Shown here in pieces: positions 23,407 to 59,295 of a stretch of DNA of 64,000 nucleotides. The DNA is taken from positions 1-64,000 of the forward strand of contig CALCCF010000019.1 of the NCBI GenBank assembly GCA_937899905.1. Reading direction: 5' to 3'. Position numbers and translations under genes: made by a program. How positions within the stretch are numbered: position 1 is the stretch's first letter; every line of letters begins with the position of its first letter. This stretch comes from an uncultured Phycisphaeraceae bacterium (GTDB taxonomy: Bacteria; Planctomycetota; Phycisphaerae; Phycisphaerales; UBA1924). The notes under the pieces are model-generated. The model saw nothing but the letters and a program-made list of their open reading frames with translations. It ran no database searches and was not told where the DNA came from.

Positions 23407-23433
23407 GCTAGGGTCGATAGTCGGGTAGAAGCG

Positions 23434-52175: not shown

Positions 52176-53024
52176 ATGCGCGGCGATATCGAGTACAGCA
52201 AGGTCATCGACAGCGACGAGGCCCGTTTGGCCCAGGCCGCCGCAGACAAGGCCCCATTCCAGGCCTCGGCCGACATCGACACCGACAAGTTCTACATCAC
52301 CCAGAAGATGGACCTCTACACCGATGAGAACCACGAGGTCTGGCGCACGCTGTACACCGAGCGTATGAAGACGCTCGACCACCAGGCCTCGAAGGTATTC
52401 CTCGACGGCATGCGCGCGATCGGTCTGCCCAGCGACAGCGTGCCGAGTGTGGCCTCGATTAACAAGAACCTCGCCGCGCTCACCGGTTGGGCCAGCCGCC
52501 CCGTGCCGGGGTACCTGCCGGCCAAGGCGTTCTTCGCCTGCCTGGCCAACCGCCAGTTCCCCACCACCATCACCATCCGCCCCAAGCGGCTGATGCACTA
52601 CCTGCCCGAGCCGGACATCTTCCACGACATCTTCGGCCATGTGCCCCTGCACGCCGACGACGTGTTCGCCGAGTTCCTGCAGACCTACGGCAAGGCCGCC
52701 CTGCACTGCGAGGACCCGTACCACATCGAGCGGCTGGGCCGGCTGTTCTGGTTCACCGTCGAGTTCGGCCTCATCCGCGAGGACGGCCGCACCAAGCTCT
52801 ACGGCAGCGGCCTGATCAGCAGCCTGGGTGAGAGCGAGCACGCGCTGCACAGCAAGAACGTGGACCGCCGCGACTTCGACCTCGACCTGGTGTGCGACAC
52901 GCCCTTCGAGATCGACCACTACCAGCCGATCCTCTACGTGCTGGACAGCTTCGAGCAACTGCGCGATGCGATGAACAAGTATGCCGAGCGGGTGATGAAT
53001 GCGCGCAAGGCCAGCGCTGCGTAG
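52176..53024 (+). CDS. phhA: Phenylalanine 4-monooxygenase (pterin-dependent)
   Basis: 282 aa from ATG 52176, with GGAGGG six bases upstream. It hydroxylates phenylalanine to tyrosine with tetrahydrobiopterin/pterin, O2 and Fe(II). The iron ligands are H150 and H155 in PDIFHDIFGHVPL and E196 in FWFTVEFGL; the spacings (5 and 41) equal those of the Chromobacterium enzyme (H138, H143, E184). The segment RKYIPGYLPA-like GYLPAKAFFACLANRQFP also fits. The length is that of the single-domain bacterial form, without the animal regulatory ACT domain. A pterin-recycling gene (phhB) is not adjacent. The AT-rich palindrome upstream may be its operator. Confidence 0.95.
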   Translation: MRGDIEYSKVIDSDEARLAQAAADKAPFQASADIDTDKFYITQKMDLYTDENHEVWRTLYTERMKTLDHQASKVFLDGMRAIGLPSDSVPSVASINKNLAALTGWASRPVPGYLPAKAFFACLANRQFPTTITIRPKRLMHYLPEPDIFHDIFGHVPLHADDVFAEFLQTYGKAALHCEDPYHIERLGRLFWFTVEFGLIREDGRTKLYGSGLISSLGESEHALHSKNVDRRDFDLDLVCDTPFEIDHYQPILYVLDSFEQLRDAMNKYAERVMNARKASAA

Positions 53025-53051
53025 GACCGAACCCTCTGTCTGATCTTACGT

Positions 53052-53081
53052 ACCCTCGTTTGGCACACGCCGAACGGGGGT
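53052..53081 (+). promoter_or_regulatory. Leader hairpin covering the ribosome binding site of the 53.1-kb gene
   Basis: ACCCTCGTTTGGC (53052-53064) pairs with GCCGAACGGGGGT (53069-53081) over 13 base pairs (two G-U pairs, none mismatched) around an ACAC loop. The right arm contains the GGGGG that serves as ribosome binding site for the ATG at 53086, so the hairpin would hide it. A weaker version stands in the same place before the paralogue at 54239. Confidence 0.5.
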
Positions 53082-53085
53082 TCGT

Positions 53086-53565
53086 ATGCAACCGAAACTT
53101 GGCGAGAGCCCAGGCGATCTCGGCGCCGGCTACGAGATCTTCATTGTCGAAGACTGGATCGCCATCAACACGCCCACCCGTCAGACCAGATTCGGCCCGA
53201 TTTCAGACCAGTTGCAGATTCCCTATAGCGAAGTCTTGGTGTGCACCAAGGATGAAAACTTCTTTTTCATCGCGCACACACGACCGTCAGCCGCGAACGC
53301 AACCTTCTACCGGATAGATCTGAACGCTGGAACACACGCGAAGCTCACGCTGCCCAACAATCATGGCCAGATCCTGGGCCACATCTACAGCGTCTCTCCA
53401 AGCGCCCGCGAACACGACCCGTTCATGCTCACCGGTGGCGGCCAATTCATGATCGGCGCGGCCCACGTCGTCGGCTACACCTGCGCCGGCTTCTCCGCAC
53501 TCTTCGTCGTAGCGATTGTGGTCACCGCCGTCGTATTGCGCAAACGCCGCAAGCAAGTACAATAG
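53086..53565 (+). CDS. Membrane-anchored protein, paralogue A, 159 aa
   Basis: No family recognised. The start is ATG 53086. The N-terminal part (MQPKLGESPGDLGAGYEIFIV) is hydrophilic and rich in beta-type residues; a single C-terminal transmembrane helix (VVGYTCAGFSALFVVAIVVTA) precedes the basic end LRKRRKQVQ, so the bulk is probably outside the cytosol only if the helix inserts N-out. The paralogue at 54239-54688 has the same opening (MQPKLGESPGDLG), the same SPxxRxxDPxxL-G-GQF pattern (SAREHDPFMLTGGGQF against GVRNIDPYRLSGDGQF) and a similar helix. The two genes flank a DinB-type gene. Confidence 0.7.
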   Translation: MQPKLGESPGDLGAGYEIFIVEDWIAINTPTRQTRFGPISDQLQIPYSEVLVCTKDENFFFIAHTRPSAANATFYRIDLNAGTHAKLTLPNNHGQILGHIYSVSPSAREHDPFMLTGGGQFMIGAAHVVGYTCAGFSALFVVAIVVTAVVLRKRRKQVQ

Positions 53566-53573
53566 CCAGCGGT

Positions 53574-54095
53574 TTACCCAATCCGCCGCACCATCTCCGC
53601 CAACGCCAGATGGTGGTCGTCGTGATCCGCAAAGAACACGCACGTATCCACCACGCGCTTCTGCACGCCTAACCGCTCGTGCCAGGCGCTGCGGCCGAAG
53701 AAGTCGCGCGGGTAAGCCTCCAGCCGCTGGACCGTTGCCTCGCGCACGCGCCGCAGGTCGGCGAGCACCTCTGCGAGTGACCTCGCGTCATGATCTGTAT
53801 CCACCGTCCGCGTGTTCTGCATGTCGGCGGCGGGCAGCAGCGGCGACCCGGCTTCGTACGCATCAAGCCTCTCGGCAAGCAATCGCTCAAGATCGGCAAG
53901 GTGCCCGAGGTGGCGTTGGATCGACCATCCATCTTCGGGCACCTTCGTCGCCTGCCCCGGTCCCAGCCGTGCGGCGAATGCTTCGGCCCGAGCCGGGAGC
54001 CCTCGAAGGCGTTCGATGACCGCCGGGTAGAGCTCGGCCGGGAAGTCGAACCGCCAGCGGCGGTACATCCAAGGCGTAAGGACTTGTCCGTGCAT
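53574..54095 (-). CDS. DinB-superfamily protein
   Basis: 173 aa from ATG 54095; an in-frame start further upstream (to 54263) would run into the neighbouring gene and lacks family residues. The fold is a four-helix bundle with the three metal-binding His visible: H in SIQRHLGHLADLE and two in FFADHDDHHLALAEM. DinB-like (DinB_2) proteins include thiol transferases and stress proteins of unknown action. The gene lies between two paralogous membrane-protein genes and overlaps their intergenic space, on the opposite strand. Confidence 0.75.
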   Translation of the reverse strand: MHGQVLTPWMYRRWRFDFPAELYPAVIERLRGLPARAEAFAARLGPGQATKVPEDGWSIQRHLGHLADLERLLAERLDAYEAGSPLLPAADMQNTRTVDTDHDARSLAEVLADLRRVREATVQRLEAYPRDFFGRSAWHERLGVQKRVVDTCVFFADHDDHHLALAEMVRRIG

Positions 54096-54203
54096 GTTGA
54101 TTGGTATGCAGCCAGAACGGCTGCCGTCGGGTTCGTTATCGACCCAGACACACACCACCGACTGCCGCCGCGCACAAGACGAACCGTCGACTTCTAACCA
54201 CGT

Positions 54204-54234
54204 ACCCCTCGATAGCGACATGAAACACGGGGGT
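54204..54234 (+). promoter_or_regulatory. Leader hairpin-like pairing before the 54.2-kb gene
   Basis: ACCCCT (54204-54209) can pair with GGGGGT (54229-54234), 6 base pairs (one G-U) around a 19-base loop. The GGGGG is the ribosome binding site for the TTG at 54239. The leader matches that of the 53.1-kb paralogue: ACGTACCC(C)TCG, later ACGGGGG or CACGGGGG, then the start and TGCAACC. Confidence 0.4.
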
Positions 54235-54238
54235 GTCC

Positions 54239-54688
54239 TTGCAACCCAAACTCGGCGAATCACCGGGCGATCTTGGCGGTGGGTACAGCCTCATGATCGT
54301 CAATAGCCAGGTCGGCATCTCGGTGCCGAACGCGGGCGACGTCGTGATACCCGAATACTCGGTGATCGTCTGCACGCTCGATGACGACTACTTCTTCATC
54401 GCGTCGGCCTTCGGGCCACAGTCACCCAACGCAAAGATCTGGCGCTTCGATCTGCAGGCCCAGGAGCACACGCAGTACGTCATCGCGAACGACGAGTCCC
54501 AGATCATGTCGCACATCCATCAGTACTCGCCCGGCGTGCGGAACATCGATCCATACCGCCTGTCGGGCGATGGACAGTTCATCACCAACGCGTTCCTCAC
54601 CGTCGGCGTCGTTCTCCTTGCCATCTTCGTGTTTATCTGCCTCGTCGAGGGTGCGATCACCTTGCTCGAGCGGAAGGGCCTGCTGTAA
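54239..54688 (+). CDS. Membrane-anchored protein, paralogue B, 149 aa
   Basis: The start is taken as TTG 54239 because the sequence around it (CGGGGGTGTCC-TTG-CAACCC) aligns base for base with CGGGGGTTCGT-ATG-CAACCG of the paralogue at 53086; a GTG six bases earlier (54233) lies inside the ribosome binding site. The protein opens MQPKLGESPGDLGGGYSLMIV, has IVCTLDDDYFFIASAFG in parallel with the paralogue's VLVCTKDENFFFIAHTRPS, and ends in one long hydrophobic helix (FLTVGVVLLAIFVFICLVEGA). The family is unknown to me. The next gene converges with nine bases between. Confidence 0.7.
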   Translation: MQPKLGESPGDLGGGYSLMIVNSQVGISVPNAGDVVIPEYSVIVCTLDDDYFFIASAFGPQSPNAKIWRFDLQAQEHTQYVIANDESQIMSHIHQYSPGVRNIDPYRLSGDGQFITNAFLTVGVVLLAIFVFICLVEGAITLLERKGLL

Positions 54689-54696
54689 CAGGTCGC

Positions 54697-55587
54697 TCAG
54701 TCGCAGCCCTGATCGAACAGGTTCTGGAACTCGAGGAAGTCGAACAGGTTAAACAGTCCATCGCCGTTGATGTCGGCGCGCGGATCGCTATCGGCGAAGA
54801 GGTTCTGGAACTCGATGAAATCGAAGATGCTCAGCGTGCCATCGCCGTCGAGGTCCGCCTGACAGATCTCCACGGTCTGGATGATCGCCAGCCCCTGGAC
54901 CGCACGGGCCGGCGAGATCCCGCCGAGGTTGACAAGCCGGAGCGGGAAGAGGTCGATGCGATAGAAGTTGCCGCTCACCGAGACGCTCGCGTACAGGGCG
55001 TTCTCGTTCACGTCATAGGCGAGGCCGCGCCAGTTGACAGCGGGGAGCGCGAGCGAGAGCGGCGACGCCTGCGCTGTGTCGGGATCGATCGTGACGATGC
55101 GATCGGTCAGATCGGACAAGCCATAGAGGATCCCGTTGATCGGGTCATACGCCAAGCCTTCGACACCATTCGCGCCCGAGATCACACCGATCGTGGACGA
55201 TGCGCCCGTCGACGGATCGACGCTATACAGACGGTTGTTGTTGTTGTCGCTGACGTAGATGATGTCGTTGACTGGGTCGTACGCGAGGCCGTTGGCGTTG
55301 CTGGCACCAGTCACCGCGGCGAGCAACGTGGTCGCTCCCGTGTCCGGATTGATCGAGAACACCGAGTTGTCGCCGGCATCGACCGCGTAGACCTCGCCCG
55401 TGTTGCTGTTGTACGCGAGGCCCTGGGGCGACTCGCCGACCGCCACGCGCGATGTCGTCGCGCCGCTGGTCCGGCTCATCTCGACGAGCTCGTTGGGGAT
55501 CAGGTTCCCGCCCAGGATCGTGCCTTCCTGGCCAAACGCGCAGGCGGCGGTGATGGCAATGACGACGCTCCCCACGGACTTCAGCAT
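54697..55587 (-). CDS. Secreted YVTN/NHL-like propeller protein with GC-type dockerin tail
   Basis: 296 aa from ATG 55587 (GAGGAGAG upstream). A signal peptide ends at CAFGQ. Five or so repeats of about 45 residues have the pattern GLAYDPxNxxxYVSD (GLAYNSNTGEVYAVDAGDN, GLAYDPVNDIIYVSDNNNN, GLAYDPINGILYGLSD), typical of beta-propeller surface proteins. The C-terminal module has LDGDGTLSIFDFIEFQN and INGDGLFNLFDFLEFQN between the Cys of EICQAD and the terminal GCD. It is likely to be extracellular; its binding partner is unknown. Confidence 0.85.
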   Translation of the reverse strand: MLKSVGSVVIAITAACAFGQEGTILGGNLIPNELVEMSRTSGATTSRVAVGESPQGLAYNSNTGEVYAVDAGDNSVFSINPDTGATTLLAAVTGASNANGLAYDPVNDIIYVSDNNNNRLYSVDPSTGASSTIGVISGANGVEGLAYDPINGILYGLSDLTDRIVTIDPDTAQASPLSLALPAVNWRGLAYDVNENALYASVSVSGNFYRIDLFPLRLVNLGGISPARAVQGLAIIQTVEICQADLDGDGTLSIFDFIEFQNLFADSDPRADINGDGLFNLFDFLEFQNLFDQGCD

Positions 55588-55698
55588 GGTGCTCTCCTCT
55601 CGCGCTCCGTCTCGTTCTTGATGGCCGCGTGGCCCCGCAATCAGCGTAACGCAAAGGCAACCAATCGCAATGGCCAACTGACGTCCAATAAAAAACAC

Positions 55699-57383: not shown

Positions 57384-58286
57384 ATGAACGGCAAGTTCAC
57401 GAACACAAGCATCATCGCGGGCATCGCCGCGCTGGCGTCCGGAGTTTCCTCTGCTGCTGCCGACGAGATGTGGGCCGTGAGTGCGAGCTCCGACAGCCTG
57501 TTTGTCTTCGATTCCGATACGGGTGCGACCGTGCGTGTTGTCGGGCCGCTGGGTACCGATCCGGTTGGCTACCAGACCGCGGGCAGCATGGCCGTGGATG
57601 ACGCGGGCCGCATCTTCATCATCAACAACAGCCCGGCGCCGGTGAGCAACCTCAGCCGCGTCGATCCGGAGACCGGCCGCGCCACCCATATCGGCGGCGA
57701 CGTGTTCTTTTCACTCAGCTTCGGGCCCGACGGGCAGCTCTTCGGGTTAAATCTTGCCGGCCGGCTCTGCACAGTTGATACGACCACAGGCCTGACAACG
57801 TCGCTGGGCGGTCCGATCCTGCCAACCGTACTGGGCTTGGACTACAACCGGCGTGATGGCTTCCTCTACGGCGTCACGAGCGAGAGATTCGGCGCAATCG
57901 TCGCGCTGCTACGCATCGACCCAGCAACCGGTGACTTCACATCGATCCCAATGAGCACCTCCGTCCGTGGCAGCGCTCCGGGCAGCATCGCCTTCCAGCG
58001 CGACGGCGATCTCATCATGACAGAGAACGGGTTCGTCCTCTGGGAGGTCGACATCGTCTCAGGTGAAATGACACAGATCACCACCACTGCCGATATCGCC
58101 CAAGGCCTGGGCCTGATGCCCTGCCTCCCCGATTTCGACGCCAGCGGCGACTTGGACCTCTTCGACTTCCTTGCGTTCCAGAACGCGTTCGACGCCGGTG
58201 ATCCCGCGGCCGACCTCGATGGCGACGGCGTGCTGACCATCTTCGACTTCGCCGCGTTCCGGGACACCTTCGACGCGGGCTGCTGA
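57384..58286 (+). CDS. Secreted protein with GC-type dockerin tail, tandem paralogue 1
   Basis: 300 aa from ATG 57384 (AGGAA upstream). A signal peptide ends at SAAADE. The body is a propeller-like sequence: SASSDSLFVFDSDTGATV, GSMAVDDAGRIFIINNS, RDGFLYGVTSERFGAIVALL, GSAPGSIAFQRDGDLIMTENG. The C-terminal module is DFDASGDLDLFDFLAFQN then LDGDGVLTIFDFAAFRD, bracketed by Cys in LMPCLPD and the terminal GC. The first loop reads DxDxS in place of DxDGD. The next gene, 58405-59295, is a close paralogue, so this is a recent tandem duplication. Confidence 0.8.
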   Translation: MNGKFTNTSIIAGIAALASGVSSAAADEMWAVSASSDSLFVFDSDTGATVRVVGPLGTDPVGYQTAGSMAVDDAGRIFIINNSPAPVSNLSRVDPETGRATHIGGDVFFSLSFGPDGQLFGLNLAGRLCTVDTTTGLTTSLGGPILPTVLGLDYNRRDGFLYGVTSERFGAIVALLRIDPATGDFTSIPMSTSVRGSAPGSIAFQRDGDLIMTENGFVLWEVDIVSGEMTQITTTADIAQGLGLMPCLPDFDASGDLDLFDFLAFQNAFDAGDPAADLDGDGVLTIFDFAAFRDTFDAGC

Positions 58287-58404
58287 TCCGAAAAAAGTGC
58301 CCGAATCTCCGTGACTCCACGGCTTGGCCCACGCTCTCCACAGTGCGACGGCGTCGGTGCTCCTGTTCCCCGAGCACGTCCCGCCGCACAAAGGAGAACC
58401 AATC

Positions 58405-59295
58405 GTGACCAAGCAGATCGTCGCCGCCACCACCATCGCCGCCCTGTCGGGCCTCGCCCACGCCGACCGCATGTACGCCGTGGACGCCAGTTCTGACAGC
58501 CTGTACATCTTCGACAGCGACACGGGCGAAACCGTCGAGTTCATCGGCCCACTGAATCCCGATCCCGATCGCTATCGCACGCCGGTCAGCATGGCGGTGA
58601 CCGACTCATTCACGATCTTCGTCATCAACAACTCCCCAGACGGCGACGAGGGTCTCAGCCGCGTCGACCGCTTGACCGGCCTGGCGACGCATATCGGCGG
58701 CGACGTCCGCAACTCGATCGCGATCGGCCCCGGTGGCGTGCTCTACGGTGCCGATGCGGCGGGCCGACTCGGCACGGTGAGCTCGTCGACCGGTAACGTC
58801 CGCCTCCTCGGTGGCGAGCGTCTCCCCCGCCTGTTCGGCCTCGACTTCAACACGCGCGACGGTTTCTTCTACGGCATCACGAGCGCGAGCCCGGGCTCCA
58901 TTCCCGAGCTGCTCAAGATCAATTCCCGGACCGGCGCCCTGGTCGACACCATCCCGCTGAGCATGGGCATCGCCGGCAGCGCTCCCGGATCCATCGCCTT
59001 CCAACGCGATGGCGATCTGGTCATGACCGACAACGGCCGCCAGCTGTATGAGATCAACATCGCGACGGGGTTTACCAGGGTCCGCGCTAGCACGTCGAAC
59101 ATCCCCCAGGGCCTGGGGCTCGCACCCTGCCCGGCCGATATCGACGCCAGCGGCGACGTCGACATCTTCGACTTCCTCGAGTTCCAGAACCTGTTCGACG
59201 CGGGTGATCCGGCCGCCGATTTCGATGGTGACGGCGTACTGACGCTGTTCGACTTCCTGGCGTTCCAGAACGAGTTCGACTCCGGCTGCGAGTGA
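58405..59295 (+). CDS. Secreted protein with GC-type dockerin tail, tandem paralogue 2
   Basis: 296 aa from a GTG with AAGGAG eight bases upstream; an in-frame start 81 bases earlier lacks a signal-peptide pattern. A signal peptide (MTKQIVAATTIAALSGLAHA) leads to a propeller-like body nearly identical in plan to the preceding gene (DASSDSLYIFDSDTGETV, GSAPGSIAFQRDGDLVMTDNG). The module is DIDASGDVDIFDFLEFQN, FDGDGVLTLFDFLAFQN, between the Cys of LAPCPAD and the terminal GCE. A 12-bp terminator lies about 200 bases after the stop. Confidence 0.8.
   Translation: MTKQIVAATTIAALSGLAHADRMYAVDASSDSLYIFDSDTGETVEFIGPLNPDPDRYRTPVSMAVTDSFTIFVINNSPDGDEGLSRVDRLTGLATHIGGDVRNSIAIGPGGVLYGADAAGRLGTVSSSTGNVRLLGGERLPRLFGLDFNTRDGFFYGITSASPGSIPELLKINSRTGALVDTIPLSMGIAGSAPGSIAFQRDGDLVMTDNGRQLYEINIATGFTRVRASTSNIPQGLGLAPCPADIDASGDVDIFDFLEFQNLFDAGDPAADFDGDGVLTLFDFLAFQNEFDSGCE

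Follow-up and report, generated by a model that had tools for sequence, protein, structure and literature searches.

Conserved leader blocks before two paralogous membrane-protein genes of a Phycisphaeraceae bacterium, tentatively read as promoter and ribosome-binding site, and a long hairpin local to one of them

Two paralogous genes for small membrane proteins, which we call A and B, lie close together in a stretch of 64,000 nucleotides (nt) from an uncultured Phycisphaeraceae bacterium (positions 1 to 64,000 of contig CALCCF010000019.1, assembly GCA_937899905.1; the window hereafter), and the same series of short blocks precedes both of them. The conserved blocks are real, one strong stem in the leader of A is real, and no structure is shared by the two leaders beyond seven base pairs (bp). 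This pattern is most likely explained by conserved promoter and ribosome-site signals, together with a hairpin that is local to A. In its specific form, to which we give a probability of roughly 0.45, the shared blocks are an extracytoplasmic function (ECF)-type promoter, a ribosome-binding site and a start codon, the usual core signals that two fast-evolving duplicates have kept, and the long stem belongs to A only. The elements concerned are as follows.

53029 to 53033, + strand: proposed −35 element of gene A (GAACC), placed by a GAAC-N16-CGTA spacing as in B; putative function
53047 to 53086, + strand: gene A hairpin, with a 13-bp stem (53052-53064/53069-53081), loop ACAC and 4 outer bp (53047-53050/53083-53086)
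53049 to 53052, + strand: proposed −10 element of gene A (CGTA), also in the 5′ arm, placed by spacing and block identity; putative function
53076 to 53080, + strand: GGGGG of gene A, Shine-Dalgarno-like, at the same distance from the start codon as in B
53086 to 53565, + strand: gene A, 159 amino acids (aa); the model shows a beta-rich domain, and a single C-terminal hydrophobic segment carries a basic tail
54181 to 54185, + strand: proposed −35 element of gene B (GAACC), placed by spacing and block identity; putative function
54201 to 54204, + strand: proposed −10 element of gene B (CGTA), placed by spacing and block identity; putative function
54204 to 54234, + strand: weakly pairing stretch of the gene B leader (54204-54209 against 54229-54234; −7.4 kcal/mol)
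54229 to 54233, + strand: GGGGG of gene B, Shine-Dalgarno-like, at the same distance from the start codon as in A
54239 to 54688, + strand: gene B, 149 aa from TTG, a paralogue of A with 41% aa identity

Across the leader blocks, 34 of 35 positions are identical in A and B (27 of 28 without TGCAACC), compared with 7 of 31 in the spacers. The individual blocks agree at 8/9 (CGAACC.TC), 5/5 (ACGTA), 6/6 (CCCTCG, before which B carries one extra C), 8/8 (ACGGGGGT) and 7/7 positions (TGCAACC), and the spacers at 1/11 (CGAACC.TC to ACGTA), 6/15 (CCCTCG to ACGGGGGT) and 0/5 (ACGGGGGT to TGCAACC). The TGCAACC block takes in coding sequence, and its conservation may reflect the protein because the first 17 codons are themselves better conserved than the rest of the gene (14 of 17 residues and 71% of nucleotides identical). 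Beyond codon 17, nucleotide identity is 51%, and third codon positions agree in 55 of 131 cases (42%). The upstream regions of A and B are significantly similar (0 of 1000 shuffles). Because the blocks were kept while spacers and third codon positions diverged far, we consider the blocks to be constrained. Plain duplication without constraint is ruled out by the identity of the blocks set against that of the spacers, and the initial annotation was right to reject it.

The genome of this bacterium (an assembly of 3.63 Mb, 95% complete) holds the fuller leader pattern, ACGTACCC(N)TCG-N10..25-CGGGGG, at two sites, which are the leaders of A and B; the reversed control holds none. The shorter element ACGTACCC occurs in the window at 53048 and 54200 only, where 0.73 copies are expected and 18 of 100 shuffles contain at least two. 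The common leader order reported earlier for both genes therefore holds to the letter, with its fuller pattern at these two genome sites only.

The proposed arrangement would comprise GAACC as the −35 element and CGTA as the −10 element, with 16 nt between GAAC and CGTA, followed by GGGGG as the ribosome-binding site and by the start codon. The spacing of GAAC-N16-CGTACC is identical before A and B, and so is that from GGGGG to the start codon. The CGAACC.TC block lies upstream of the hairpin and outside its pairing; therefore, its conservation fits a promoter and not pairing. According to PMC4336711, GAAC-type −35 motifs occur in one class of ECF promoters and CGTA-type −10 motifs in another. 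A literature search for ECF promoters of planctomycetes found no paper, and a sigma-70 promoter scan returned nothing for the two leaders.

The hairpin of gene A consists of 13 continuous pairs around a loop of 4 nt, or 17 bp with the outer part, and covers the G run. The 44-nt leader has a minimum free energy (MFE) of −28.2 kcal/mol (z −6.73), and none of 200 dinucleotide shuffles is as stable. The earlier statement that 13 continuous base pairs place the ribosome-binding site of A in a stem is well founded. Among 50 mechanically chosen open reading frame (ORF) start regions (mean −11.8, standard deviation 5.3), A ranks second in stability; the first place goes to a frame that runs antisense to a long gene and probably is no gene itself. 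When the upstream leader is shuffled, the G run is hidden as completely in 3 of 500 cases. Long stems as such are not rare in the window, which contains 34 of at least 12 bp (loops of 3-24 nt, both strands, a few counted twice).

The leader of B pairs at chance level. Its pairing amounts to 6 bp (−7.4 kcal/mol) or to 7 bp with a bulge (−5.4); the 44-nt leader has an MFE of −9.2 (z +0.46), matched in stability by 128 of 200 shuffles; the start region is of average stability beside the 50 ORF start regions; and the G run is hidden at least as well in 73 of 500 shuffled upstream stretches. The shorter pairing over the G run that the initial annotation saw in B is thus present but no better than in shuffled sequence. 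When the 17 pairs of the A structure are placed on the A/B alignment, 7 are unchanged, 1 differs in a single partner (G-C to G-U), 9 cannot form in B and none is compensatory; nothing in B corresponds to the inner part of the A stem. It had also been claimed that the spacers differ while the pairing arms remain; the spacers do differ, but the arms are kept for only the 7 unchanged pairs.

Gene A follows a hydroxylase gene, both on the + strand with 61 nt from stop codon to start, whereas the gene before B lies on the other strand, and B lacks a strong stem. The neighbouring genes are listed here.

52176 to 53024, + strand: biopterin-dependent aromatic amino acid hydroxylase gene of the phenylalanine 4-hydroxylase type (Pfam PF00351 Biopterin_H, E 2.8e-56)
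53574 to 54095, − strand: DinB_2 gene between A and B (Pfam DinB_2, E 1e-12), with a putative start codon
54697 to 55698, − strand: NHL-repeat gene with a dockerin-like end (Dockerin_1 below its cut-off); start codon not settled

From this arrangement and the folding computations, we infer the promoter, the transcript starts, a silencing of read-through RNA and any 3′-end role in the following way. Transcripts would start at about 53058-53060 (A) and 54210-54212 (B), 6-8 nt after CGTA and inside or past the 5′ arm. RNA from the genes' own promoters would then lose most of the 5′ arm and have a more open ribosome-binding site. The long stem of A would form only in RNA entering from the hydroxylase gene, where it would hide the ribosome-binding site of A, and it may also mark the 3′ end of the hydroxylase mRNA. 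In computed accessibility, the probability that the G run is unpaired is 0.00 (A) and 0.03-0.06 (B) for 5′ ends that lie before the arm or at its beginning, and 0.35-0.40 (A, ends 53058-53063) and 0.55-0.64 (B, ends 54208-54215) for late 5′ ends.

Several observations weigh against this account. With respect to the promoter, GAAC-N16-CGTACC is not enriched genome-wide (14 sites, compared with 18 in the reversed control), and on this ground an ECF regulon was rejected. Three of the 14 sites, besides those of A and B, have a ribosome-site-plus-start pattern at most 124 nt downstream; these three lie inside stop-to-stop frames of 238-457 codons, and for the A and B sites the frames measure 173 and 238 codons. 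No sigma factor is tied to the proposed promoter; CCCTCG, which follows CGTA, exceeds what a −10 element requires and is the complement of CGGGGG, in keeping with the model of the initial annotation; and the three further homologues described below have no comparable leader that could back the promoter model. With respect to accessibility, a start of A at 53056 leaves the G run only 0.09 unpaired, so that it opens further only if the RNA begins no further upstream than 53058. For B, late 5′ ends leave the start codon less open (0.32-0.49) than ends at 54150-54198 do (0.54-0.73), and the hiding of the G run also follows from GC-rich sequence alone, given the 73 matching shuffles. With respect to the 3′ end, the leader of A is not significantly similar to the flanks behind the hydroxylase gene in other members of the genus (406, 77 and 299 of 1000 shuffles for G005, G002 and G006; G and L numbers are our working labels of the compared genomes and loci). 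Furthermore, strong hairpins (below −18) are not enriched at 3′ ends in the window (9 of 49, the same as at 5′ ends, and 18% of 200 random stretches). Because of the dissimilar flanks and the missing enrichment, what points to a 3′-end role of the A stem is its position.

A rival explanation, which we consider unlikely although it survives best, makes this role the whole story: the hairpin of A would serve solely the 3′ end of the hydroxylase mRNA, as a terminator or stabiliser, and would overlap the A leader by coincidence. The hairpin does begin 22 nt past the hydroxylase stop codon (27 nt for the 13-bp part), and a strong stem is missing at B, where the preceding gene runs in the opposite direction. 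Moreover, strong hairpins stand close behind the same gene in G005 (−23.2) and G006 (−25.4), where gene A is missing, each beyond all 15 mononucleotide shuffles. The corresponding values in the other four members of the genus are −11.3 to −15.9, and none of 14 loci behind hydroxylase genes outside the genus beats all of its own shuffles. However, G005, G006 and G002 have flanks that significantly resemble one another and not the A leader; therefore, the likeness of the A stem to the hairpins of G005 and G006 is one of position only. An origin of the A leader from an old hairpin of the hydroxylase-dinB spacer was rejected for want of significant similarity to these three genomes. In addition, the arms are also found in B, where nothing ends, and strong hairpins are, as said, no commoner at 3′ ends. 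The A stem also lacks a T tract, being followed by TTCGTATG, and is not listed by the terminator scan, whereas a hairpin near 23430 of the window has a T tract.

Two further observations concern these flanks. Behind the hydroxylase gene, G005 and G006 carry a hairpin with a GTGA loop and without a T tract (the L067, L068 and L070 set), which is weaker in G002. The 12-mer GACGAACCGTCG upstream of B (54178-54189) recurs in the G002 flank behind the hydroxylase gene, a match that is not significant (375 of 1000 shuffles score equally).

At first sight, the leaders invite a different explanation, and the initial annotation chose it: a structured translational control element, in which an RNA hairpin in both leaders hides the ribosome-binding site until a signal opens it, so that A and B are regulated at translation. 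The arms ACCCTCG and CGGGGGT are common to A and B (with one C more in B) while the loop-side spacer differs, the very stable stem of A covers the G run completely, and the G run of B is mostly hidden too if its RNA starts upstream. Nevertheless, we regard this explanation as decidedly improbable. None of the 17 pairs is compensatory and 9 are broken in B, where the pairing is at chance; the other three homologues have no such leader; and a scan of the window with Rfam yields only a tRNA at the gathering score and no match for the leader. The conserved −35-like block would also be left unexplained. The absence of two-sided changes is in itself a weak test that compares two leaders, because five homologues are known and the leaders are common to A and B only, too few for a true covariation test. 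As far as five homologues with two comparable leaders can show, there is no covariation and the pairing is lost in most homologous leaders, an outcome that the initial annotation had named as refuting its reading. The start regions (78 nt) of L028, L076 and L094 fold with z values of −0.57, −1.29 and +0.70, and by eye the blocks of A and B have no counterpart before these genes. The genes of L028 and L094 start at most 25 nt from an upstream stop codon and may be co-transcribed with the RHS gene before them, thus needing no leader of their own.

The block ACGTACC(C)CTCG might instead be the operator of a DNA-binding regulator and the G run a plain ribosome site. The block agrees at 11 of 11 positions apart from the one inserted C, exceeds the length of a −10 element and, by eye, includes a palindromic ACGT core. 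However, the fuller leader pattern occurs in only two genome copies and no regulator is linked to it, and we think this explanation very unlikely. There is just as little to be said for a strong A stem produced by chance in a GC-rich leader atop shared expression signals, since the 34 long stems of the window and the one other start region that is as stable are outweighed by the shuffled leaders, none of 200 folding as well and only 3 of 500 hiding the G run as completely.

Promoter and ribosome-site conservation is thus our preferred reading of the leaders, and the genes behind them belong to a family that we found in one genus. A and B are its only members in their own genome, and profile searches add three homologues from the same genus, one in G006 (L028, 1433-1891) and two in G004 (L076, 1396-1842, and L094, 1471-1935). 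A single-protein search matched 1 of 101 genomes, the own one. A two-row profile matched 20 of 397 genomes of the class at E <= 0.1; besides the own genome, G006 was taken up (E 0.026, a frame of 158 aa), and the remainder, partial matches with E values of 0.0015-0.1 and mostly in long or broken frames, was not. With the three-row profile, 16 of 397 genomes matched at E <= 0.1; from these we added G004 (E 2.4e-4) and left 13 aside. The four-row profile matched 6 of 163 genomes of the family, three of which were dropped (E 0.08-0.1, frames of 398-674 codons). Finally, the five-row profile found 3 of 392 genomes of the phylum at E <= 0.02, which were only the three already known; the genome samples of these successive searches overlap. 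A search for A and B in 54 other database stretches gave no relative.

Over the first 105 residues, similarity runs as a chain from A to G006 (z 10.3), from G006 to L094 (z 10.9) and from L094 to L076 (z 16.8). The membership of L094 and L076 is founded on this chain and on the profiles because their direct similarity to A is nil (z 0.1) and weak (z 2.2), respectively. All five members have a hydrophobic C-terminal segment, followed directly by a basic tail in four of them. The model of A shows a beta-rich domain and a long C-terminal helix at a mean predicted local distance difference test (pLDDT) score of 69; a Foldseek search with it gave nothing at E <= 0.001. The five proteins have no Pfam, NCBIfam or PADLOC match over a cut-off, and a sequence search of the PDB gave nothing below E 0.4.

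The homologues at L028 and L094 start 24 and 13 nt after ORFs with an RHS-associated core (TIGR03696; E 1.7e-15 in G006 and 1.6e-8 in L094). The C-terminal 240 and 241 residues of these two RHS ORFs are 40% identical. This 240-aa domain is cysteine-bearing (DCDC, CGI.AGCT; L094 1-1935, L028 1-1891) and has no Pfam match and no PDB match below E 0.8. The arrangement is the one expected of an RHS effector gene followed by its immunity gene; we predict the immunity function from position only, and the domain and the A/B homologue form a candidate for a new effector/immunity pair. The domain was found in 4 of 163 genomes of the family at E <= 0.01 and, in a separate scan, in 1 of 34 stretches, which seems to be the G006 contig again. 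It was not found in the bacterium's own genome at its 95% completeness; the genome has two other RHS cores.

An RHS gene lies directly upstream of the L028 and L094 homologues and not of A, B or the second G004 copy. That copy (L076, 337-2640) stands between two sigma-70-family genes, one of them ECF by Pfam, and away from the single match to the RHS C-terminal domain in G004. In G034, which has a weaker match to this domain, the next gene encodes, by eye, another kind of membrane protein. Beside the RHS/partner pair of G004 we also observed a tyrosine recombinase gene (L094 2099-3175, − strand; Phage_integrase, E 1.9e-24). Because two of the three homologues stand directly behind RHS-core genes with a common C-terminal domain, we would class A, B and one G004 copy as probable orphans of an immunity type, a prediction drawn from gene position.

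In the window, A lies between the hydroxylase gene and dinB, and B between dinB and the NHL-repeat gene, which is convergent with B at a distance of 8 nt. A gap of exactly 8 nt to the end of a convergent gene thus follows both A (gap 53566-53573) and B (gap 54689-54696). The hydroxylase gene is present in all 6 other members of the genus that were searched. In G005 it is followed by dinB and the NHL-repeat gene in order, without A or B, and the order in G002 is the same, with the NHL match limited to the last ~60 residues. In G001, G003, G004 and G006 the hydroxylase gene is followed instead by stop-to-stop frames of 196-346 codons, which may or may not be genes, and a 20-residue dinB match remains in the G004 interval. 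The hydroxylase-dinB-NHL interval (window 53025-54700) therefore looks variable within the genus. A search for insertion footprints revealed no convincing flanking repeats. Elsewhere in the window (57384-59295), two adjoining genes with NHL-like and dockerin-like parts resemble paralogues by eye and are also related to 54697-55698.

A more far-reaching proposal would join the leaders to the gene family. The leaders would contain an inverted repeat with the −10 element in one arm and the ribosome site as the other, A and B would be orphan immunity-type genes of a new RHS-linked family known from one genus, and only RNA from their own promoter, probably ECF-driven, would be translated. Such a gate, set by where the transcript originates, would shield inserted defence genes from the operons next to them. 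We hold this combination to be a long shot. If such gating were true, newly gained defence genes would have a simple means of remaining silent when foreign promoters read into them. At the least, our analysis warns against taking complementary blocks that a pair of GC-rich leaders share for an RNA switch. Of more lasting value is the gene family itself, a small membrane protein that is RHS-linked in one planctomycete genus and has copies away from RHS, and that offers an entry to toxin-immunity biology in the phylum Planctomycetota, where, to our knowledge, few toxin-immunity pairs have been tested.

Compared with known systems, the proposed promoters resemble those of ECF sigma factors in having GAACC and CGTA at one fixed spacing before both A and B, a combination like that of the SigW promoters of B. 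subtilis. They differ in that the motif is not enriched genome-wide, is known here from sequence and has no sigma factor assigned. A stem that sequesters the ribosome site is known to silence read-through RNA in transposase genes of the IS10 type and in T4 lysozyme. The computations for A and B are similar, with the site closed in incoming RNA and more open in the shorter RNA of their own; however, the effect in B is at chance level, and no link to a transposon or phage was seen. The literature searches made here showed no paper on such silencing, and PMC8450116 and PMC4265352 gave no relevant passage. With the RHS polymorphic toxin systems and immunity families, in so far as sections of PMC3482391 describe them, the family shares two homologues directly behind RHS-core genes with similar C-terminal domains, although no known toxin or immunity family was matched here. 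Orphan immunity genes have been documented elsewhere (PMC12247911, PMC10539506). A and B resemble them in that both are diverged copies of an RHS-linked gene and that their genome yielded no match to the corresponding C-terminal domain. They differ in being two single genes and not an array, and their protective role is a predicted one.

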